This document shows positions 6,469 to 16,915 of a stretch of DNA of 64,000 nt, piece by piece. Under the pieces are notes generated by a model that saw only the letters and a list, made by a program, of their open reading frames with translations, was not told the DNA's origin and ran no database searches. The position numbers and the translations under genes were made by a program. The DNA comes from Clostridia bacterium. Lineage in GTDB: Bacteria > Bacillota > Clostridia > Lachnospirales > Lachnospiraceae. Numbering within the stretch: position 1 is the first letter of the stretch; the number at the start of each line of letters is the position of its first letter. The stretch is from the NCBI GenBank assembly GCA_910574835.1, contig CAJTDE010000017.1, forward strand, positions 1 to 64,000. The letters are read 5' to 3'.

Positions 6469-7710
6469 ATGAGAAAACCGGAATTGTTAATACCCGCCAG
6501 CAGCTTAGAGGTATTGAAGGTGGCGGTGATTTTTGGGGCGGATGCCGTTTATATCGGAGGGGAAGCCTTCGGTCTTCGGGCAAAGGCTAAGAATTTTTCT
6601 TTGGAGGAGATGAAGGAGGGCATTGCATTTGCCCACAAATACGGAGTGAAGGTCTATGTGACGGCTAATATTCTGGCGCATAACCGGGACCTTAAGGGGG
6701 TTCGGACATATTTTCAGGAGCTTAAGGAGGTGTGTCCGGATGCCCTGATTATTGCGGACCCCGGTGTATTCATGCTGGCAAAGGAGATTTGCCCGGAGAT
6801 TGAGCGTCATATCAGTACCCAGGCCAACAATACCAATTATCTGACCTACCGCTTCTGGAAGGAGCAGGGGGCGAAGCGTGTGGTATCGGCAAGGGAGCTT
6901 ACACTTTCGGAGCTTCGGGAGCTTCGGGCCAATATTCCGGAGGATTTGGAGATTGAGACCTTTATTCATGGGGCTATGTGCATTTCTTATTCCGGGCGGT
7001 GCCTTTTGAGTAATTATTTTACGGGGAGAGATGCGAATCAGGGGGCATGTACACATCCCTGCCGCTGGAAATATGCGGTGGTGGAGGAGACGCGGCCGGG
7101 AGAGTATTTTCCTGTTTATGAAAATGAGAGAGGGTCTTATATTTTTAACTCCAAGGATCTCTGTATGATTGAGCATATTCCAGAGCTTTTGGAGGCGGGG
7201 ATTGACAGCTTTAAGATAGAGGGGCGGATGAAGACAGCCCTTTATGTGGCTGCGGTAGCCCGGACTTATCGGAAGGCCATTGATGACTGCCTTAGATCAC
7301 AGGAGCTTTATCGGCAGAATATGGACTGGTATCGGGAGCAGATTGGCGGCTGTACTTATCGGGAGTTTACCACGGGATTTTTCTATGGGAAACCGGATGA
7401 GAACAGTCAGATTTATGGAAATAACACTTACATCAAGGGGTATACGTACCTGGGAATTGTGAATAAGCTTGACGGGCGCGGGTATTGCCGGATTGAGCAG
7501 CGCAATAAGTTCTCTGTGGGGGACGAGATTGAGATTATGAAGCCGGACGGGACCAATGTGCCTGTGAGGGTGGAGGAGCTTCTTGATGAAGAGGGAAGCC
7601 GGATGGAGAGTGCGCCCCATCCGAAGCAGAAGCTGTTTGTGCGGCTGAGCGGTGAGGCGGAGGTTTTTGATATTCTGCGGAAGCGGGAGGAAGCGCCGGG
7701 GGCGGAATAA
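6469..7710 (+). CDS. trhP: U32 family protein, probable tRNA U34 hydroxylation protein TrhP
   Basis: A 413-aa 'peptidase U32' protein. The N-terminal TIM-barrel-like region has PELLIPAS and GADAVYIGG; the central signature includes ETFIHGAMCISYSGRC and NQGACTHPCRW, whose cysteines are conserved in TrhP-type proteins; the tail resembles the U32 C-terminal beta domain. TrhP (YegQ in E. coli, YrrN/YrrO in B. subtilis) is needed for prephenate-dependent 5-hydroxyuridine at tRNA position 34. The neighbouring trmR supports this role. ATG 6469 follows AGGGG. Confidence 0.8.
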   Translation: MRKPELLIPASSLEVLKVAVIFGADAVYIGGEAFGLRAKAKNFSLEEMKEGIAFAHKYGVKVYVTANILAHNRDLKGVRTYFQELKEVCPDALIIADPGVFMLAKEICPEIERHISTQANNTNYLTYRFWKEQGAKRVVSARELTLSELRELRANIPEDLEIETFIHGAMCISYSGRCLLSNYFTGRDANQGACTHPCRWKYAVVEETRPGEYFPVYENERGSYIFNSKDLCMIEHIPELLEAGIDSFKIEGRMKTALYVAAVARTYRKAIDDCLRSQELYRQNMDWYREQIGGCTYREFTTGFFYGKPDENSQIYGNNTYIKGYTYLGIVNKLDGRGYCRIEQRNKFSVGDEIEIMKPDGTNVPVRVEELLDEEGSRMESAPHPKQKLFVRLSGEAEVFDILRKREEAPGAE

Positions 7711-7755
7711 AAAAAGAGGATCTGTGCATGGCCTATTATCTGAGATATTAGGTGG

Positions 7756-7816
7756 AAAGGCACTTCTTTGGGGGAGTTATCATAAGATAATATAAATCCG
7801 CCAAAGAGGTGCCTTT
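7756..7816 (+). promoter_or_regulatory. Hairpin that sequesters the sigK ribosome site
   Basis: The arms 7756-7771 and 7801-7816 pair over 16 bp with one G-U pair, around a 29-nt loop. The right arm contains the whole ribosome site (AAAGAGGTG, 7803-7811) and ends just before TTG 7817. A run of five T overlaps the start codon. Long transcripts from the trhP side would fold this stem, hiding the site and possibly terminating. Confidence 0.65.
7762..7789 (+). promoter_or_regulatory. Candidate mother-cell sigma promoter of sigK
   Basis: CATAAGATA at 7781-7789 fits the SigK -10 consensus CATAnnnTA (SigE is similar). An AC at 7762-7763 fits the short SigK -35 at a 17-bp spacing. The promoter lies in the hairpin's left arm and loop, so a transcript starting near 7796 would lack the left arm. 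Confidence 0.45.
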
Positions 7817-8434
7817 TTGAAAACTTTTCCCCAACCACTACCGGCCAAAGAGGAGCAATTTTATCTGCAGAAGCTGAAGGAGGGAGACCTTGAGGCACGC
7901 AATATCCTGGTGGAGCATAATCTGCGTCTGGTGGCCCATATTGTGAAGAAATATCAGGGAACCGAGGAGGACGTGGAGGATTTGATTTCCATTGGTACGA
8001 TTGGTCTGATTAAGGCTGTTACGACGTTTGACAGCGGAAAGGGACCGCGGCTCGCTACGTATGCGGCGCGCTGTGTGGAAAATGAGCTTTTGATGTTTTT
8101 CAGGGCCAGGAAAAAGACGGCCAGGGAGACTTCTTATTATGAACCGATTGGTACGGATAAGGAAGGAAATGAGATTCATCTGCTGGATATTATTGAGAGT
8201 AATGAACGGGATGCTTTTGCGCAGATTAGCTTGAAGGCGGACAGTAAGAAGCTGTATGAGCTTTTGGATCAGGTGCTGACGCCCAGGGAGCAGAAGGTTT
8301 TGATTATGAGGTACGGGCTTTATAATGGGAAGGAGTATACCCAGAGGGAGATTGCGGGGCAGCTTGGGATTTCCAGGTCTTATATTAGTAGGATTGAGAA
8401 GAATGCTTTGGGGAAGTTGAAGGAGTATTTTTAG
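7817..8434 (+). CDS. sigK: RNA polymerase sporulation sigma factor SigK
   Basis: A 205-aa sigma-70 family factor. Region 2 has LRLVAHIVKKY, DLISIGTIGLIKAV and RLATYAARCVENELLMFFR; region 4 has REIAGQLGISRSYISRIEKNALGKL. The combination matches SigK, which directs late mother-cell transcription for coat and cortex genes. The gene is intact, with no skin-type element splitting it, and there is no long pro-sequence, as in many Clostridia. The start is TTG 7817, chosen because AAAGAGGTG precedes it; this site is inside a hairpin. It shows the organism belongs to a spore-forming lineage. Confidence 0.9.
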   Translation: MKTFPQPLPAKEEQFYLQKLKEGDLEARNILVEHNLRLVAHIVKKYQGTEEDVEDLISIGTIGLIKAVTTFDSGKGPRLATYAARCVENELLMFFRARKKTARETSYYEPIGTDKEGNEIHLLDIIESNERDAFAQISLKADSKKLYELLDQVLTPREQKVLIMRYGLYNGKEYTQREIAGQLGISRSYISRIEKNALGKLKEYF

Positions 8435-8445
8435 GAGGGGTGGAC

Positions 8446-8663
8446 GGGACCGAGCCGAAACCAGGCCCGGGCTTTTCCATATCCCGTGTTCGGACGGTTC
8501 ACGTACACACTGTCTGCTCTTGTCGGACTTGCGGGGGTGGGTTTGACAGGCTTCGCCTGTTTGGACTTTTTTGACGCAGGTCCGCCAATATCAGACAGTG
8601 TGTGCGTGAACAGCCGGACACTGGGATACTGGAAAAGCCCGGGCCTGGTTTCGGATCGGTCCC
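8446..8663. repeat. 218-nt imperfect palindrome between sigK and ybaK
   Basis: Arms of about 72 nt (8446-8517 and about 8592-8663) are near-identical inverted copies with only a few mismatches and two short gaps. Pairing continues inward (GTCGGACTTGCG against its inverted copy) to a central hairpin ACAGGCTTCGCCTGT near 8550. It lies between two genes that converge. It could be a bidirectional terminator, but the length suggests a palindromic mobile or repeated element. A 64-codon frame inside it is probably incidental. Confidence 0.8.
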
Positions 8664-8720
8664 TGTCTTTGGGGGCGTAGGGGTGGGGGTGGGTCTTTTT
8701 GGAATAGTGGGAAATTGTCT

Positions 8721-9239
8721 TTATGGGGTGTTTCGTAAGGGCGATGGATATGGAATGGGGGGGTAGGTGATGTCGTTTAGGGTGAAGTTTAGGGCTTTTT
8801 TTAGGTCGGGTAGGGTGAGTTCTACCTGGTAGCCTATTTTGCCGGCGCTGAATAGGATGGTTTGGAAGGTGAGGGCGGTGGTGTCGATGGTGGTTTGGAA
8901 TTGCTTTTTCATGCCGATGGGGGAGCAGCCGCCGTGGATGTAGCCGGTTAGGGGGAGGAGATCTTTGGATTTGAGCATGGTGATGCTTTTTTCGTTGACG
9001 GAGCTGGCGGCTTTTTTGAGGTCTAGTTCTTTGGTGACGGGGACTAGGAATACGTAGTTGGTTTTTGAGCTTCCGGAGGTTACCAGGGTTTTGAATACTT
9101 GGTTGGGGTTTTGGTTTAGGATGGCGGCAACTTCCAGGCCGCTGATGACGCCGGTGTTGGCGTAGGAGTGGCTTTTGTAGGGGATTTTCTTTTGGTCTAA
9201 GATTCGCATGACGTTTGTTTTTTCTTGGGATTTTTTCAT
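8721..9239 (-). CDS. ybaK: Cys-tRNA(Pro)/Cys-tRNA(Cys) deacylase YbaK
   Basis: A YbaK/EbsC editing protein of about 172 aa that hydrolyses cysteine mischarged on tRNA-Pro. Visible family features are the N-terminal RILDQKKIPYKSHSY, then QVFKTLVT, NYVFLVPV and the GCSPIGMKKQ loop that shapes the active site. A TTG start is possible at 9269, but ATG 9239 begins the conserved part and has AAAGGA upstream. The gene converges on sigK across the palindrome. The 536 bp between this start and the next gene hold no convincing gene apart from the promoter at 9718. Confidence 0.88.
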   Translation of the reverse strand: MKKSQEKTNVMRILDQKKIPYKSHSYANTGVISGLEVAAILNQNPNQVFKTLVTSGSSKTNYVFLVPVTKELDLKKAASSVNEKSITMLKSKDLLPLTGYIHGGCSPIGMKKQFQTTIDTTALTFQTILFSAGKIGYQVELTLPDLKKALNFTLNDITYPPIPYPSPLRNTP

Positions 9240-10183: not shown

Positions 10184-11029
10184 ATGAAAACGAATTTCAA
10201 ACATACATTTAGTTTTAATGCTTTCCAAATAAAAATGATTGCGTTAATTACAATGACTTTAGACCACATTAGCAGCTATCAAACAATCACTCAAAATCGG
10301 ACAATTAACGATGGATTGGGAATCATTGGTAGAATTGCTGCACCACTGTTTCTATTTATGGTAGTAGAGGGTGTGCGTCATACACGAAACAAAACTAAGT
10401 ATCTTCTTCGATTGTATATGGCTGGCACTGTGATTGAGATAGTAAATCGAATAATAGAAGGAGCCACAGAAGGACCTTCAATTGGCAATACATTACCAAT
10501 GTTCTTCTATACAGCGTTGTTTATCATTTGCATAGAACATATTGTAAATAATCCTAAAAATCTGAAAGTTGTTTGTACTGCAATATGTGGATTGATTATT
10601 CCATTTTTATTTTATGCACTCAACATTATTTTGCCAAGATACGGATATAGTACGGCGTGGGGAATCATATCCATATTTTTCCCATCTCCTATGAATGTAG
10701 ATTATTCCATCCTGTTTGTTCTAATGGGAATTGCGTGGTATTTTATCAATAATAGACTAATAAATTGTGCTATATTTGCGGCATTATCACTTGTTTGTAC
10801 GATAATACCAGTTTCTTTCATCACGACAGGTTGTCCTGTTATGTTAACGCCAGCAGTCTGTAGTATATTTGATCTGTTTGTGGATACACAATGGTGTATG
10901 TGTTTGGCAATCCCGTTTATGCTCCTCTACAATGGAGAAAAAGGTCATAGCCTTAAATATTTATTTTACATTTATTACCCTGTTCACGTATATCTTCTCT
11001 TTTTCATCCTGCATATAAGAGATTTTTGA
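10184..11029 (+). CDS. TraX family integral membrane protein
   Basis: A 281-aa polytopic membrane protein with about seven to eight hydrophobic segments. The N-terminal NAFQIKMIALITMTLDHI and IIGRIAAPLFLFMVVEGVRHTRNK are the hallmark of the TraX family. F-plasmid TraX acetylates pilin, but chromosomal Gram-positive homologues are uncharacterised acyltransferase-like proteins. ATG 10184 follows GGGAGAAAAT. The base composition is much richer in AT than the flanking core genes. A hairpin terminator lies at 11161. Confidence 0.82.
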   Translation: MKTNFKHTFSFNAFQIKMIALITMTLDHISSYQTITQNRTINDGLGIIGRIAAPLFLFMVVEGVRHTRNKTKYLLRLYMAGTVIEIVNRIIEGATEGPSIGNTLPMFFYTALFIICIEHIVNNPKNLKVVCTAICGLIIPFLFYALNIILPRYGYSTAWGIISIFFPSPMNVDYSILFVLMGIAWYFINNRLINCAIFAALSLVCTIIPVSFITTGCPVMLTPAVCSIFDLFVDTQWCMCLAIPFMLLYNGEKGHSLKYLFYIYYPVHVYLLFFILHIRDF

Positions 11030-11414: not shown

Positions 11415-11744
11415 ATGCTCGATAAAACAGATGGCTTTATGCCAAAAAATTGTATGTCAGGATATGACTTTGAACTATGGGTGCAAGGGATACTGACCGC
11501 ATTAAAATTTGACGCAAAGCGGACAAAGGGAAATGACAATGGTGTTGACATTATTGCGACACTGGGAGAAAGGGGAAGTCACTTAAAATATTACATACAA
11601 TGTAAATTCCATAACAGACCAGTTGGAAAGACACCTGTACAAGAAGTATATACAGGATGTAATTATTTTGGAAATGATGGGTATCCGGTAGTAATAACAA
11701 ATAACCGTATGTCAAGCGAGACAAGAGCATATGCAATGAGTTAA
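11415..11744 (+). pseudogene. Truncated Mrr-like restriction endonuclease domain
   Basis: A 109-aa frame with a PD-(D/E)XK nuclease core: GYDFELWVQGIL, then NDNGVDIIA, then YYIQCKFH and PVQEVYTG. The catalytic D of GVDII and the Q-x-K pair of IQCKF are retained. The frame stops just after ETRAYAMS, where relatives normally continue with a final strand and helix, so the C-terminus is missing. No obvious ribosome site precedes ATG 11415. It is probably a remnant of a larger restriction-type protein. It lies 280 bp left of the inverted repeat. Confidence 0.6.
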
Positions 11745-12025
11745 GGGATGCCCTTTATTTTGGGCTTTAATGGGAGTGAAATATTCATTTTCCGTATAAA
11801 TATAAGCTGTGTGGGGCAGAGATAGTCAGTAGCAACAAATAAACGAATTGGGAGTTCTTATTTTTATAATTATTTGTTTCGGAGTTATTTCATTAAAACA
11901 CTTAATATGGTATTTATAGAATATTCTCAGTTTATTTACTTATGAGTTTGGTGTGGTCATAAAATCATAAAATTTCAGTTTGGAAATTGATGATTTTTAA
12001 TAGAATATATGGTATATTAATGATA

Positions 12026-12061
12026 GATAATTAAATATTATCCATTGGAACTATCGATAAA
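12026..12061 (+). repeat. Left 36-bp inverted repeat of the putative DNA inversion
   Basis: Exactly 36 bp here recur in inverted orientation at 15547-15582. Inside is a recombinase-like core: arm ATTATCCAT (12037-12045), 7-bp spacer TGGAACT, arm ATCGATAAA (12053-12061); the two arms match as an inverted repeat at 7 of 9 positions. The repeat also contains TTGGAA, which could act as a -35 for gene A with a TAAATA 17 bp on. The 417 bp between 11745 and 12161 hold no gene. An extended -10 (TGGTATATT, 12010-12018) lies just outside the repeat. Confidence 0.9.
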
Positions 12062-12161
12062 GGTACATAAATACTCAAATATTGGCTGTTAAAAACGAAA
12101 AAAATAGTTTAGATTATCAGATTCTAAATAAAAATCTGTTAATTATTTTTACTGAGGCAAA

Positions 12162-14474
12162 ATGAGAAATATTAATTCTATTCCAACACTTCTTATATTA
12201 AAAAATATATTGCAAACATTAAACGATAGTAATTCAAGATTTATAAGTATAAGTTATTCGCATACCTTTCATAGCAATATTATTAATGAAATTCAACATC
12301 TGGATCTACAATATAAAACTGTAGATTTTTTAACTATGGTAAATCCGGGTTCTGATTCAAAGCCCTCAAATAACAATATTATAAAAACCATTTTCATAAA
12401 AATTTTTCAATTTTTAACCGAATTAAATCCTGCTGTAGCTCTCGTTGATTTTTTTTCAGGTATGGCTCTAGAGGTCGCCGGATACTATTTAAAGAAATCA
12501 GATATTACAGAGTTAAAAAAATGTTTGGGGATAAAAAGAAAACCTCAAAAATATAAAAAGCTTAAGCAAATTATAATAGTAAAAGAATTATCTGAACTCA
12601 CCGAAGAAAATATTAAGTATTTAAACTTTTTGGGCTCTTTAATTAAAAAAGGTCATTTACCTAAAACTGCTTTGTTGCTATTTTGCGATAAAAATTTTGA
12701 TTCGGGTTGGGATTTTGCGAATTCAGATCACTATGAATTAACATTTACTGCTGACGATTATCGGGAATATACCGGAGAGCAATTAAATAATATACACCTT
12801 TTGGGGATTATAGAAGATCTTGATTTAGAATATATTAATACATTACAAGAACTTTTGAAATCAAACCATCAACTTAATTCAGCAAAACATATTATTAAAC
12901 TTTTAATTGAAAAAAATGGTTACGATACAGAAGCTCTTTCTAATTTCCTTATAATTTGTAGCTATTTATTTGACGAATTTAAGTTGTTTGATATAGAAGA
13001 ATTAGACAAAAAAATAGAGACAGACTATAAAAACATGCTTCCAGCTTCATTAGAATCAAAAATCTTAAGGATTCCCAAGCTGCATACATATTCTTTTACA
13101 GAAAAAAAATTTAAAGAATATTTTTTAAACATGTCCTCCATTAGCATTAGTCATGAAGATGCTGTTTATATAATGAACTATTTGGAAAAAGAATACCCAG
13201 ATAGATATGCTGATTTAGCATTAGCATCAAAATTTATGCCTTTAGAAAACTCCCGGAAACTTTCATATTTTATTATCGCCTTTTATCATCAAAAAACACA
13301 GTCTATACGTTATAGTGACATTATTGTAGATTTTTTATCTCAATTTCCTTTAGGAAAAGAAATTATACAACTAAATATAGCTAGGGGTAATATTTCTGAA
13401 TATTCTGTAGATGAAATGTTGTATGAAGTTAAAAAGGGAATTGAGTTGATGAATAGTGATGCTATTCTTACTCCAGAAGCAAAGCTTTGCGCTCTGAATT
13501 ATATCTCTGATGTTGCTTATGAAATTATAAATGAATATGAAATATTATATAGCATATTTGATAGTTACCTACAATTGTTTCAAGAATTGCACATCTTCTC
13601 TGATCCTCAGGAGAAATTTGTCGACTATGTGTTAGATGCAATTATTTTTTCAACAAGTATGGAAAGGTATTCTGTACAAAAAAAGGTAGATAAGCTAGTT
13701 TATTGGGTAGAAGAAAGAAAATTTAAAAATATAGAAAACAAAATAAAATTTTATCGTTTGGGAAATCTTCTATATTCCCTTGATAGGGAAAAAGCATTGG
13801 AATTTACACATATTGCATATGATATAAGTTCAGATAATACTATTTTGCAAGAAAAGGCTCGTCTTAACTACAGTGTCAGCTTAATGGGTGCAGGCCAGTT
13901 TAAAAAGGCTTATGATATTTTAATTCAAAGTAAAAATTATTTTTCTGATTATAAAATTGCATTCGCAAATAACCTTATTATTGCTGGATTTCTGTGTGGG
14001 AATTATTCTTCTGAAAAGGCCGTAAGCAGATTTAAAGAATTGAAAGATATTGTTGATACATCAATAACCAGCGATCATTGCATTGTTATAAATAACTATA
14101 TTAGTGCCCTTATAGTTAATGAGTCTCTAAATCAAACAGCATGGATAAAGCAAATGGTCCAGCAAATTACAGCGCATCAAGATAATTATCATACCTTTTT
14201 TGCGTTGCATAATCTTTTGATTTTATATTATTTTAATCAAGATTTTGAAAATTTTAAAACCATACTACACCAGATACAAGTGCCATATCTGTTAAGACAT
14301 AATAGGCCTTTAGTAGAAGATAAACTTAAATTTCTCGAACAGCATTTCGATAATCATTATACATATAATGAGTTAGAAAGAAATTTAACTAGTTTAAAAA
14401 ATAATAACCAGTATGGAAATGAAATGTTTATCTCACCTGTTATCTGGGGGACGATGGAGCGTTGGTTTAAATAA
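12162..14474 (+). CDS. Uncharacterised STAND-like protein without P-loop, helical-repeat C-terminus (gene A)
   Basis: I do not recognise this 770-aa protein as a named family. The first 210 residues have the layout of a STAND/AAA-type NTPase. A strand-turn-helix at about 26-40 lies where a P-loop would be, but reads SISYSHTFHSNI and lacks GxxxxGK[ST]. A Walker-B-like strand IIIVKELSE (137-145) has no DD/DE pair. KTALLLFCD (168-176) and YELTFTADDYREY (191-203) resemble the later sensor region. The remaining 550 residues are helical, TPR-like. It may be a dead-NTPase sensor or scaffold. No membrane segment is clear. It is strongly AT-rich. The ribosome site ACTGAGGCAAA is weak. Confidence 0.6.
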   Translation: MRNINSIPTLLILKNILQTLNDSNSRFISISYSHTFHSNIINEIQHLDLQYKTVDFLTMVNPGSDSKPSNNNIIKTIFIKIFQFLTELNPAVALVDFFSGMALEVAGYYLKKSDITELKKCLGIKRKPQKYKKLKQIIIVKELSELTEENIKYLNFLGSLIKKGHLPKTALLLFCDKNFDSGWDFANSDHYELTFTADDYREYTGEQLNNIHLLGIIEDLDLEYINTLQELLKSNHQLNSAKHIIKLLIEKNGYDTEALSNFLIICSYLFDEFKLFDIEELDKKIETDYKNMLPASLESKILRIPKLHTYSFTEKKFKEYFLNMSSISISHEDAVYIMNYLEKEYPDRYADLALASKFMPLENSRKLSYFIIAFYHQKTQSIRYSDIIVDFLSQFPLGKEIIQLNIARGNISEYSVDEMLYEVKKGIELMNSDAILTPEAKLCALNYISDVAYEIINEYEILYSIFDSYLQLFQELHIFSDPQEKFVDYVLDAIIFSTSMERYSVQKKVDKLVYWVEERKFKNIENKIKFYRLGNLLYSLDREKALEFTHIAYDISSDNTILQEKARLNYSVSLMGAGQFKKAYDILIQSKNYFSDYKIAFANNLIIAGFLCGNYSSEKAVSRFKELKDIVDTSITSDHCIVINNYISALIVNESLNQTAWIKQMVQQITAHQDNYHTFFALHNLLILYYFNQDFENFKTILHQIQVPYLLRHNRPLVEDKLKFLEQHFDNHYTYNELERNLTSLKNNNQYGNEMFISPVIWGTMERWFK

Positions 14475-15509
14475 TCCATAATTTATTAAAGCAGCATAAG
14501 TAAGAAGTGCATAAACACACCATGATTCTGATGATAAATAATGGCAATATAGCTGGTTTACGCCATTAGCTTCAGAAACTGTAGGATTAGCACCGATATC
14601 TTCTACATAAGGGACATTATCTCGAATTCGAAAGTCGATTCGTGACATAGCTGTTAAATTTAGTTGTTTTGAAACAGAAACACTAATTTGAATCAATTGC
14701 TCTTTAATAGGTCCGGAATACTCGCAATAACCATATGTTTCTAGTGCTATCATGTCATAATCAATGTAATTGAGTCCTTTTGGAAAGTCTACCTGACTTA
14801 TTCCTGGACAGTAGTATAGATCTTTTATTTTCAATATGGGGACGGCAACTTCATCACCATTGATAAATTCTTGCACACAAAAAACGGGATATTTTTGATG
14901 ATATTGTTGCAATAATACTTGGATATCCTCTAATGAAAAGTCACTAAAATTGTGTACTTCCATTCCTATGCTAGATGATTCGTTATTTGGTTTTAACAGC
15001 CACTTTCCTTTTTGAATTATAGAAGGTATTGTTTGAAAAGAATCGGCTTTTTTGTACCAAAATGTTTTCGGAAAAGGAATTCCTTTTGAACTTAAAAGCT
15101 CATGCATAATATCCTTGGAACGACCTAAAGTGCAACTCATAAAATCAGCACCTATATTGATGAGCTGATAATATTCACATAATAATGGAATTAAACTTCG
15201 CCTTCCATTTCCTGTTAAGTCTTGTGCCATGCTATATACCATAACATATTTATGGATTGCTTTTAAAGATTTGATACTATTTATAAAAGATTCTTCTCCA
15301 TCAATAGAATAGACATGAACGGCTATTTTTTTAAAAGCAGAAATAATCATATGTAATTCCTCAGGGAATATACATTCTGTGGCATGAAAAGTGTCTTTCA
15401 TTGTTCTAGGTGAATTGTAAACAAATACGATACAATAATTATCACCCAATTTTTCTAAAGATTTAATTGTTTGAAATAAGATAATAATGTCATTAAAATC
15501 TCCGAACAT
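14433..15509 (-). CDS. ATP-grasp ligase, D-Ala-D-Ala-ligase-like, atypical metal site (gene B)
   Basis: A 358-aa ATP-grasp protein. KGKWLLKP (167-174) with SSSIGM (178-183) matches the ATP-binding lysine and glycine-rich loop. QEFINGDEVAVPIL is the central strand, and MSRIDFRI (288-295) carries the R-x-D pair. The family's ExN metal motif appears as VEDIGANP (302-309), so the asparagine is replaced by glycine, which is unusual. It likely joins a carboxylate to an amine with ATP; the substrate is unknown. The frame stays open outward across the inverted repeat to 15692, but ATG 15509 has AGGAGA upstream and is preferred. It overlaps gene A tail-to-tail by 42 bp. Confidence 0.8.
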   Translation of the reverse strand: MFGDFNDIIILFQTIKSLEKLGDNYCIVFVYNSPRTMKDTFHATECIFPEELHMIISAFKKIAVHVYSIDGEESFINSIKSLKAIHKYVMVYSMAQDLTGNGRRSLIPLLCEYYQLINIGADFMSCTLGRSKDIMHELLSSKGIPFPKTFWYKKADSFQTIPSIIQKGKWLLKPNNESSSIGMEVHNFSDFSLEDIQVLLQQYHQKYPVFCVQEFINGDEVAVPILKIKDLYYCPGISQVDFPKGLNYIDYDMIALETYGYCEYSGPIKEQLIQISVSVSKQLNLTAMSRIDFRIRDNVPYVEDIGANPTVSEANGVNQLYCHYLSSESWCVYALLTYAALINYGLFKPTLHRPPDNR

Positions 15510-15546
15510 TAATTTTCTCCTAAATATAGTATAGATTTTATATACT

Positions 15547-15582
15547 TTTATCGATAGTTCCAATGGATAATATTTAATTATC
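15547..15582 (-). repeat. Right 36-bp inverted repeat of the putative DNA inversion
   Basis: This is the perfect inverted copy of 12026-12061. It ends 37 bp before the start of gene B and has the same orientation relative to gene B as the left copy has to gene A. On the minus strand TTGGAA within it is followed after 17 bp by TAAAAT, a plausible promoter for gene B. Confidence 0.9.
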
Positions 15583-15757
15583 CTTGGAAGGAGTAGTGTA
15601 GGAACTTCAAATAGAGGAGAAGCATTTGCGCCCCGAATTACAAGGATCATTAGAGCCGGTTTCCGAATAGAGGGAAAAATATTTAAACACAATACATAAC
15701 AAAAATGATACAGCAGAGCATTAAAAATAAGAAGATTTTAAAATCTGACAAATGAAT

Positions 15758-15794
15758 AAAACAGCCTTGAAGAAAATTTTCCAAGACTGTTTTA
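15758..15794 (-). terminator. Terminator of the recombinase gene
   Basis: AAAACAG-C-CTTG (15758-15769) pairs with CAAG-A-CTGTTTT (15782-15793) around an A/T loop. T runs on both sides suit termination in either direction. It starts 4 bp after the recombinase stop and insulates it from the inverted repeat. Confidence 0.6.
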
Positions 15795-15797
15795 CTA

Positions 15798-16730
15798 TTA
15801 TATCCGAGTTAATATATTCATTCTTTTCCGAGGATGTTTTGATTCAAGAATCTCTTTTTGCTTTGACATAGCAACATGTGTATATATTTCCGTTACACTT
15901 ATAGAACTATGCCCCAACATAGTTTGAATATAACGAATATCAACATTTTCCTCTAGTAAGAGAGTAGCAAAAGAGTGACGGAACATATGTGGAGTAATAT
16001 GTTGTTCAATATTAGCAATGCAACAGTATTTGTTAATCATTTCTCTCACTGACTGGTCCGATAAACGGTTCCCAATATTATTTACAAAAAAATAGCCACA
16101 AGAAAGAATTTCCTCATTATATTCTGAACGGTATTTGTTTAATACATTGACAATATGTTCATCACATATATGAATCAGACGCTCTTTAGCCCCCTTTCCT
16201 TTAATTATAATAATATTATTTTTTAAATCAATATTTTGATATGGCATTGAACATAATTCAAATATCCTAATTCCTGTTGCAAAAAGCATTTCCATGACAA
16301 CGATATCTCGAAGTAAAATTCTTTTTTTTCCATTGTTTGGGGCATTGCAGTATTGCATATAAATTGTATTAAATAATATTTCAATGGTAGGTAATGGGAT
16401 TGTTTTTGGCAGTATAATTGGTTCGCGAAATTTTATATGCAATTTATTAAATGGATTTTTGTCAATTATTTCTTTATATTCAAGATAATGAAAAAAGGCT
16501 TTTAAAGATGCAATTTTTCGTTTAACTGTCTTTGGAGTGTACTGCTGATGAAGTTCTGTTAAGTATGCCTCTATGATATTGGCGGAAATTTCAGCAGCTT
16601 CAGTTGTAGAAACCCATTCAGAAAATTGCCGTAAGTCAATACGATATGCTTTTACTGTCTTTTCATCCAGACGTTTTTGGGCAATACAATATTCTAAATA
16701 GTTTTTAATGTGAATTTGTAAATTGCTCAT
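15798..16730 (-). CDS. Tyrosine recombinase, XerC/D-like, candidate invertase
   Basis: A 310-aa tyrosine recombinase with an N-terminal SAM-like core-binding domain (about 1-95) and a catalytic domain. All six catalytic residues are visible: R155 (ATGIRIFEL), K179 (KGKGAKER), H248 and R251 (HMFRHSFA), H274 (MLGHSS) and the nucleophile Y283 (EIYTH). The enzyme should therefore be active. It is read toward the inverted-repeat block and ends 215 bp from it, with no phage or ICE excision gene beside it. An invertase acting on the 36-bp repeats is the favoured role; a remnant integrase of the AT-rich island is the alternative. AGGAGA precedes ATG 16730. Confidence 0.88.
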   Translation of the reverse strand: MSNLQIHIKNYLEYCIAQKRLDEKTVKAYRIDLRQFSEWVSTTEAAEISANIIEAYLTELHQQYTPKTVKRKIASLKAFFHYLEYKEIIDKNPFNKLHIKFREPIILPKTIPLPTIEILFNTIYMQYCNAPNNGKKRILLRDIVVMEMLFATGIRIFELCSMPYQNIDLKNNIIIIKGKGAKERLIHICDEHIVNVLNKYRSEYNEEILSCGYFFVNNIGNRLSDQSVREMINKYCCIANIEQHITPHMFRHSFATLLLEENVDIRYIQTMLGHSSISVTEIYTHVAMSKQKEILESKHPRKRMNILTRI

Positions 16731-16915
16731 AGTGTAATCTCCTTTATGTATATTTTTGTATATCGTACATCGAATTTAGATTAGTTGCTATAAAATGATT
16801 TTTTAGAGTTATGCATCTTTTTACTGTAAGGATATAGAAATTAGAATGAACAGGCAATATGTTCTAAAATTTTAGGTTTTGGCTCCGGAGCAAGCGAAAA
16901 AAGATATTTCCTTTT

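Follow-up and report, generated by a model that had tools for sequence, protein, structure and literature searches.

Whether a bacterium can choose between two unrelated genes by turning over the DNA that carries both is the question raised by a locus in a Clostridia bacterium of the family Lachnospiraceae. The locus lies in the first 64,000 nucleotides of contig CAJTDE010000017.1 (assembly GCA_910574835.1, forward strand), the whole of which was analyzed and is referred to here as the window. At positions 12026–15582, a perfect 36-bp inverted repeat (12026–12061 versus 15547–15582) encloses 3.5 kb of DNA with two genes, next to a gene for a tyrosine recombinase. The results described below make it highly probable that this locus works as a gene selector based on DNA inversion, in which the recombinase flips the two-gene cassette against one outside promoter.

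The Element in the Window

The element and its recombinase consist of the following features:

12026..12061, plus strand: left recombination site, with the core GATAAT-TAAAT-ATTATC at 12026–12042 and an inner arm; if 2 mismatches are allowed, it reaches 46 bp and ends at 12071
12162..14474, plus strand: cassette gene A, for a 770-amino-acid (aa) protein without recognized fold, now facing the candidate promoter
14433..15509, minus strand: cassette gene B, for a 358-aa ATP-grasp ligase with a D-Ala-D-Ala ligase-like C-terminal domain, from profile matches and the reading of its start
15547..15582, minus strand: right recombination site, which is the left site inverted, with its core at 15566–15582
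15798..16730, minus strand: XerC/XerD-like tyrosine recombinase of 310 aa, 215 bp outside the right repeat

According to the list of open reading frames (ORFs) and the reading of start sites, the repeats enclose these two genes and no others. The genes are convergent and their tails overlap at 14433–14474. The likely start of gene B is the ATG at 15509, which is preceded by AGGAG and lies on the cassette side of the right repeat, while a longer, mechanically called ORF that extends to TTG 15692 crosses the repeat outward. The repeat covers 46 bp at 2 mismatches and 57 nt at 88% identity. Given the local composition, ~1e-10 perfect 36-bp pairs are expected by chance in 64 kb. No other copy of a 25-base stretch of the repeat was found in the 5.0-Mb assembly when up to 3 mismatches were allowed. 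The GC content of the element and recombinase is 0.29–0.30, compared with 0.46–0.52 in the surroundings, which suggests that they are acquired DNA.

The recombinase matched XerC/XerD profiles with scores below their curated cut-offs. Aligned to the solved structure of XerD (1a0p), it retained R, K, H-x-x-R, H, and Y, which we take to be the catalytic residues. The ATP-grasp protein was 41% identical to the partner gene product at a related locus, L128, and the 770-aa protein was 29% identical to the 768-aa protein of L128 and 25% identical to a protein of G081. A search of genome contigs aimed at close relatives gave a near-identical copy on CAJTIM010000047 as the sole relative of the ATP-grasp protein. 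Among the viral contigs searched, neither the 770-aa protein nor the recombinase had a relative.

An initial annotation, made from the sequence alone, had described the 36-bp repeat, the two convergent genes with their overlap, and the nearby recombinase with its catalytic residues. All of these were reproduced at the same coordinates, the recombinase as an intact ORF. Its label of “STAND-like” for the 770-aa protein was not borne out. This protein had no Pfam match above the cut-off (the best, RPN7, had an E-value of 0.011 and fell below it) and no match in NCBIfam or PADLOC, and when three ATPase relatives were compared with it by profile, the probability was 1%. No NTPase domain was recognized by these profiles, and an identity as a STAND NTPase is thus not supported.

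Distribution of the Recombinase and Its Cassettes

Of 397 genomes sampled from the window's family, 49, among them the one that contains the window, encoded a relative of the recombinase at E ≤ 1e-85. In a phylum-wide sample, 1 of 398 genomes had one, and that was again the window's own. The neighborhoods of 64 relatives and the window gave 65 loci. Repeats were identified with a finder that demanded the site motif, whose criteria were relaxed after a first pass missed loci where the repeat arm cut the motif. A complete repeat pair was found at 31 of the 65 loci, at 26 in the arrangement of the window and at 5 with the recombinase on the other side. At one of these, L126, the partner site was mis-assigned at a contig end. 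This locus was excluded from the convergence and promoter counts and retained among the 31 elements and 62 sites.

Four more cassettes were found on contigs without a recombinase (L048, L049, L052, and L055). Convergent genes only were present in 33 of the resulting 34 cassettes (30 + 4), when reading frames of at least 120 aa were picked longest first. The remaining one, L048, is apparently split by an inserted element, presumably IS66. In addition, a plasmid protein search identified four places with related recombinases in three Aliarcobacter records, and all four adjoin inverted repeats that enclose convergent genes. A record from the human gut, MT838418.1, was also noted (L167, 759–2860). 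It encodes a recombinase 75% identical to that of the window, and a gene for a pyridoxal-phosphate-dependent enzyme begins at a site.

Recombination Sites and Their Spacers

The consensus of the 62 sites was GATAAT-N5-RTTATC, with weaker preferences in the flanking positions. Within an element the five-base spacers agree, and 27 kinds of spacer were found among the 31 elements. With motif-based pairing, spacers were identical in 30 of 31 elements, which is partly a product of the pairing itself. A test in which sites were paired by their arms only, to avoid circularity, was therefore preferred. Loci were testable when they had a recombinase-adjoining site and a second site 0.8–9 kb away. The five spacer bases matched in inverted orientation at 26 of the 27 testable loci (of 65), compared with 11 of 702 comparisons between different loci. 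Spacers that are alike within an element and differ between elements fit what strand exchange requires, and both sites and spacers have the properties expected for recombination.

At 1 of the 27 loci, L036, the spacers matched directly; this locus also matches in inverted orientation and contains a duplicated stretch. At 10224–11051 of L036, the site is repeated directly and a further, incomplete recombinase frame is present beside a single N; this stretch is a duplication or a scaffolding artefact. L042 contains a 105-bp perfect inverted repeat (11879–11983 and 16753–16857) with three different sites, each with a different spacer, hinting at nested cassettes.

Inversion of Homologous Cassettes

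In loci homologous to the window, cassettes are inverted with breakpoints at the sites. The closed Aliarcobacter cryaerophilus plasmids pM830MA and pACRY43158 have flanks that run in the same direction and are 99.9% identical over 988 bp and 99.8% identical over 2585 bp. The 3458-bp cassette between them is 99.9% identical on the opposite strand, and the breakpoints fall at a 17-bp repeat. The flipped cassette pairs an 823-aa protein, for which no Pfam or PADLOC match was found, with an ATP-grasp enzyme, and this pairing is of the same kind as that of the window. In pM830MA, the 823-aa protein is split into two frames of 368 and 464 aa. Within the window's family, the cassettes of L036 and L109 are 81% identical over 4917 bp, on opposite strands once both loci are oriented by their recombinases. 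Moreover, both junctions are represented in G002, where contig C83 joins the flank to the start of cassette contig C77 and the other end of C77 runs into the same flank. The repeat of G002 is just 18 bp.

Orientation also varies among cassettes of the same gene types. Relative to the recombinase, both orientations were found between the window and L128, L036 and L109, L042 and L113, and L133 and both L139 and L143. Two cassette types (L111/L115 and L114/L131) were found in a single orientation. In addition, contigs break off close to the recombinase, at a distance of up to 330 bp, at 18 of 63 loci (15 downstream and 3 upstream, versus 0.6 expected per side). Assemblies may branch at these places when both orientations coexist, a long repeat being an alternative cause. 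Five genomes have contig ends that share more than the core (G326, 127 bp; G012, 116 bp; G382, 75 bp; G371 and G099, 55 bp). As these could be long inverted repeats, they were not used as direct evidence; nor was the overlap between C1 and C63 of G012, which is possibly the repeat itself. A cassette contig was looked for in G326 and was not found.

Gene Content of the Cassettes

Cassette proteins were clustered and their representatives scanned with Pfam and PADLOC; several of the ATPase and TPR matches were under the Pfam cut-offs. Six cassettes encode ~1130-aa proteins with an ATPase domain, whose N-termini look restriction-enzyme-like by eye, together with glycosyltransferases. Five encode a 561-aa TPR-like protein with an ATP-grasp protein. 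Three encode TIR-TPR proteins with an ATP-grasp protein, two of which add a lysine-aminomutase-like protein; the TIR of L096 is encoded by a gene of its own. Two cassettes are of the window's type, two contain an nSTAND6-like protein with a dehydrogenase-like protein (labeled by eye) and a protein related to serine hydroxymethyltransferase, two contain a Mrr-ATPase-like protein with a carbamoyltransferase, and two contain a radical-SAM/ATP-grasp protein with a pentapeptide protein. Finally, three contain a 340-aa protein and a methyltransferase, matching genes annotated as GNAT and methyltransferase in A. faecis pAFAEC. Many cassettes combine an immune-like protein (TIR, SIR2, ATPase, or TPR) with an enzyme acting on small molecules or sugars.

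Two cassettes encode Thoeris-like proteins. In L125 and L169, a ThsA (PADLOC E-values of 1.1e-60 and 2.7e-97, respectively; Pfam SIR2_2 and STALD in both) lies opposite a TIR protein. The TIR proteins match ThsB at 2.4e-12 and 3.1e-7, respectively, in PADLOC, with PDC-S66 the better match in both, and TIR_2 in Pfam. The L169 cassette (6548–8721), with convergent genes between inverted sites beside a related recombinase, is from the metagenomic record MT835475.1, labeled Bacteriophage sp. No ThsA or ThsB homolog was found by PADLOC among the cassette proteins of the window, and its cassette is not a Thoeris system.

The types of large protein each have one class of partner (6 of 6, 5 of 5, and 3 of 3), and ATP-grasp proteins and glycosyltransferases each serve several types. 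The constant partner class suggests that the two halves of a cassette belong together in function.

Promoters and the Proposed Mechanism

The window has one candidate promoter for the cassette:

12010..12018, plus strand: extended –10 element TGGTATATT, lying just beyond the left site, on the side distant from the recombinase, and directed into the cassette

Promoters were scored with a sigma-A-like model at the 25 loci with a recombinase gene transcribed toward the cassette, with the –10 element within 60 bp outside the site, a limit that was chosen after the results of a 160-bp scan were known. Scores in the far flank exceeded those of shuffled sequences (median 8.9 versus 5.0, p = 7.5e-5). 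Those in the recombinase-side flank did not (p = 0.81), and the far flank scored higher than the near flank at 20 of the 25 loci. Results were mixed for the five loci in which the recombinase lies on the opposite side. L037, L038, and L042 have a common far flank, in which TTGAAA followed by TATAAT gives a strong promoter match, next to three unrelated cassettes.

In the proposed selector, the recombinase would synapse both inverted sites and exchange strands in the central spacer, thereby flipping the cassette. The single outside promoter, at about 12010–12018, would fire across the left site and transcribe the gene that is turned toward it. This would be the gene of the 770-aa protein in the present orientation and the ATP-grasp gene after inversion, with the non-facing gene silent or fed by leakage. 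Recombination from site to site would also let whole cassettes be replaced. The purpose is the least certain step: the switch probably prevents strong joint expression of the partners of a conflict module and so would split the population.

Cassette Exchange, Evidence Against a Switch, and Alternative Explanations

Several observations weigh against the proposed selector. No repeat pair was obtained under the criteria used at 34 of the 65 recombinase loci; at 18 of these, the contig stops no more than 330 bp from the recombinase, L047 is interrupted, and 15 are unexplained. The Aliarcobacter recombinases, taking the best place per record, are just 44–47% identical to that of the window. G002 has an estimated contamination of ~6%, so that two strains may account for its two junctions. 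Of 61 related genomes, 2 (G000 and G007) contained the window cassette, in identical orientation, and as both assemblies pass both repeats unbroken, they give no sign of a minority orientation. In the near-identical genome G007, inserted DNA disrupts the recombinase gene close to its 3′ end (L021, which is CAJTIM010000047.1 1–160; L047 1–150; window 15844–15851), with an apparent 8-bp target duplication. In 160-bp flanks of 31 loci, both sides exceeded shuffled sequences (far, p = 0.001; near, p = 0.012) and were alike (p = 0.14). The candidate promoter of the window taken alone is weak by score (p = 0.28), and a simple promoter scan of the window gave no excess (33 found versus 34.5 expected). 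Finally, both halves of Thoeris are needed together, and expression of one gene only would disable a system of this known type, so some overlap in expression may exist.

The initial annotation had proposed that the segment inverts, that a promoter outside one end, with 12010–12018 as a candidate, drives it, and that one gene, not both, is expressed. Inversion holds at the level of the family, as seen from the plasmids, L036 and L109, G002, and the spacers. The inverted arrangement expected among related genomes was found in homologous loci (pM830MA/pACRY43158 and L036/L109) but not for the window cassette, which has one orientation in 2 of 2 genomes. The window copy, seen in this orientation only, is presumably active in inversion. 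The outside promoter agrees with the raised far-flank scores over the 25 loci, but not with the score of its own copy. A strict either/or in expression is likely but not established, as the other gene could be supplied by read-through from the recombinase side.

Such read-through is central to a possible, if somewhat doubtful, alternative, in which the far-flank promoter drives one gene and transcription through the recombinase gene drives the other. A flip would then swap strong and weak expression, and both proteins would always be present. The recombinase match ends a few bp from the site in L038, L125, and L128, leaving little room for a terminator, and the Thoeris halves that are needed together are split in L125 and L169. 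Against this, the recombinase-side flank has no promoter excess within 60 bp of the site, although it has one in the wider scan, and in the window the 215 bp between recombinase and site include a hairpin:

15758..15794, no strand assigned: hairpin 3′ of the recombinase gene, TAAAACAGCCTTG...CAAGACTGTTTTA, recognized by eye

This hairpin is possibly a terminator that separates the recombinase from the cassette. It was not flagged by the terminator scan of the window, which flagged 15619–15634 instead and gave no excess over shuffled sequences (2 found versus 1.7 expected).

Cassettes also differ between otherwise similar loci. L037 and L042 share their recombinase-side flank (89% over 2969 bp, to ~30 bp from the site) and their far flank (90%). 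L038 shares with both the far flank (90–98%) and the recombinase stretch (88–91%), without the 1.6 kb between recombinase and site. The three cassettes had no mutual DNA similarity when both strands were compared. Similarly, A. faecis pAFAEC has a different cassette between flanks 90–98% identical to those of pM830MA, so that the same Aliarcobacter locus contains either the 823-aa protein and ATP-grasp or the GNAT and methyltransferase. Unrelated cassettes on similar flanks indicate that cassettes are replaced as units, probably by recombination through the sites. A short ORF in the window is possibly a leftover of an earlier cassette:

11415..11744, plus strand: ORF similar to Mrr and to NACHT-associated inactive restriction endonucleases, adjoining the left site on its outside

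Both sets of exchanged cassettes would also suit an element used mainly for swapping cassettes between replicons, similar to an integron, with inversion as a by-product. We consider this unlikely, as the arrangement of 33 of 34 cassettes, with convergent genes that begin a short way in from the sites, together with an outside promoter, best suits inversion, and the 27 distinct spacers among 31 elements would impede free exchange.

It is less likely still that the window element is a relic, formerly active and now locked in one orientation. The identical orientation in both genomes and the interrupted recombinase of one would be explained, but the two sites match perfectly along 36 bp, neither cassette gene has a disrupted frame, and the recombinase of the window is complete. 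Finally, transposon ends, or a chance or structural repeat unconnected with the recombinase, would fit the AT-rich and hence probably acquired region, but are extremely improbable and were rejected given the two described genes alone inside, the same site core beside related recombinases at many loci, the spacer test, the plasmid inversion, and the chance expectation for the repeat.

Implications

Beyond the selector itself, a wider reading, which we hold tentatively and at slightly less than even confidence, is that these are widespread modular cassettes. The halves of one immune-like conflict module, an enzyme for a signal or small molecule on one side and a sensor or effector on the other, would lie tail to tail. 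Through its dedicated recombinase, each cell would strongly express one half, and cassettes would be replaceable whole. If so, populations would be divided into two kinds of cell, and whether systems such as Thoeris are armed would be decided by the flip. The recombinase family occurs in about one eighth of the genomes sampled from a gut family as well as on plasmids from a different phylum, with swapped cargo that includes split Thoeris. The testable question is raised of why strong co-expression should be forbidden for two genes that travel together. Moreover, the site motif and the recombinase family are markers for finding more phase-variable, defense-like gene pairs.

Comparison with Known Systems

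Similar to invertons, the window has inverted repeats with a recombination core and an adjoining intact tyrosine recombinase. In the best-known invertons, the flipped DNA contains a promoter or alternative forms of a single gene, whereas whole, unrelated genes appear to be selected here. Similar to the G segment of phage Mu and the C segment of P1 (Gin/Cin) and the Moraxella pilin segment (Piv), in which alternative coding sequences are flipped against an outside promoter, the cassettes are segments with opposed coding sequences. Different from these segments, which encode related versions of one protein and use another type of recombinase, the cassettes encode unrelated proteins and are served by a XerC/D-like tyrosine recombinase.

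Integrons have cassettes bounded by directly repeated sites. The loci in this study resemble them in having a tyrosine recombinase beside a site, interchangeable cassettes, and an outside promoter. They differ in having two inverted sites around a two-sided cassette, and inversion is the outcome that was observed. Membership in the integrons was rejected, as the sites were inverted at 26 of the 27 testable loci and a direct spacer match was limited to L036. In Thoeris, the genes usually lie side by side in the same direction. The L125 and L169 cassettes encode a SIR2-STALD ThsA and a TIR protein with ThsB matches, but in convergent orientation inside inverted sites.

In a catalog of gut invertons, 952 of 1837 invertons intersect coding sequence (Firmicutes_A, about half) (PMC11892184). 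The inverted repeats, nearby invertases, and orientation heterogeneity described in the available portion of that catalog are also features of the loci in this study, and convergent unrelated gene pairs, split defense systems, and cassette exchange are not described in that portion. A search of literature titles and the openings of abstracts, with subscription papers and preprints mostly outside its reach, found no description of this arrangement. As far as these literature searches show, what is new compared with the known systems is a tyrosine-recombinase family tied to convergent pairs of unrelated genes that are exchangeable between replicons and include split Thoeris.

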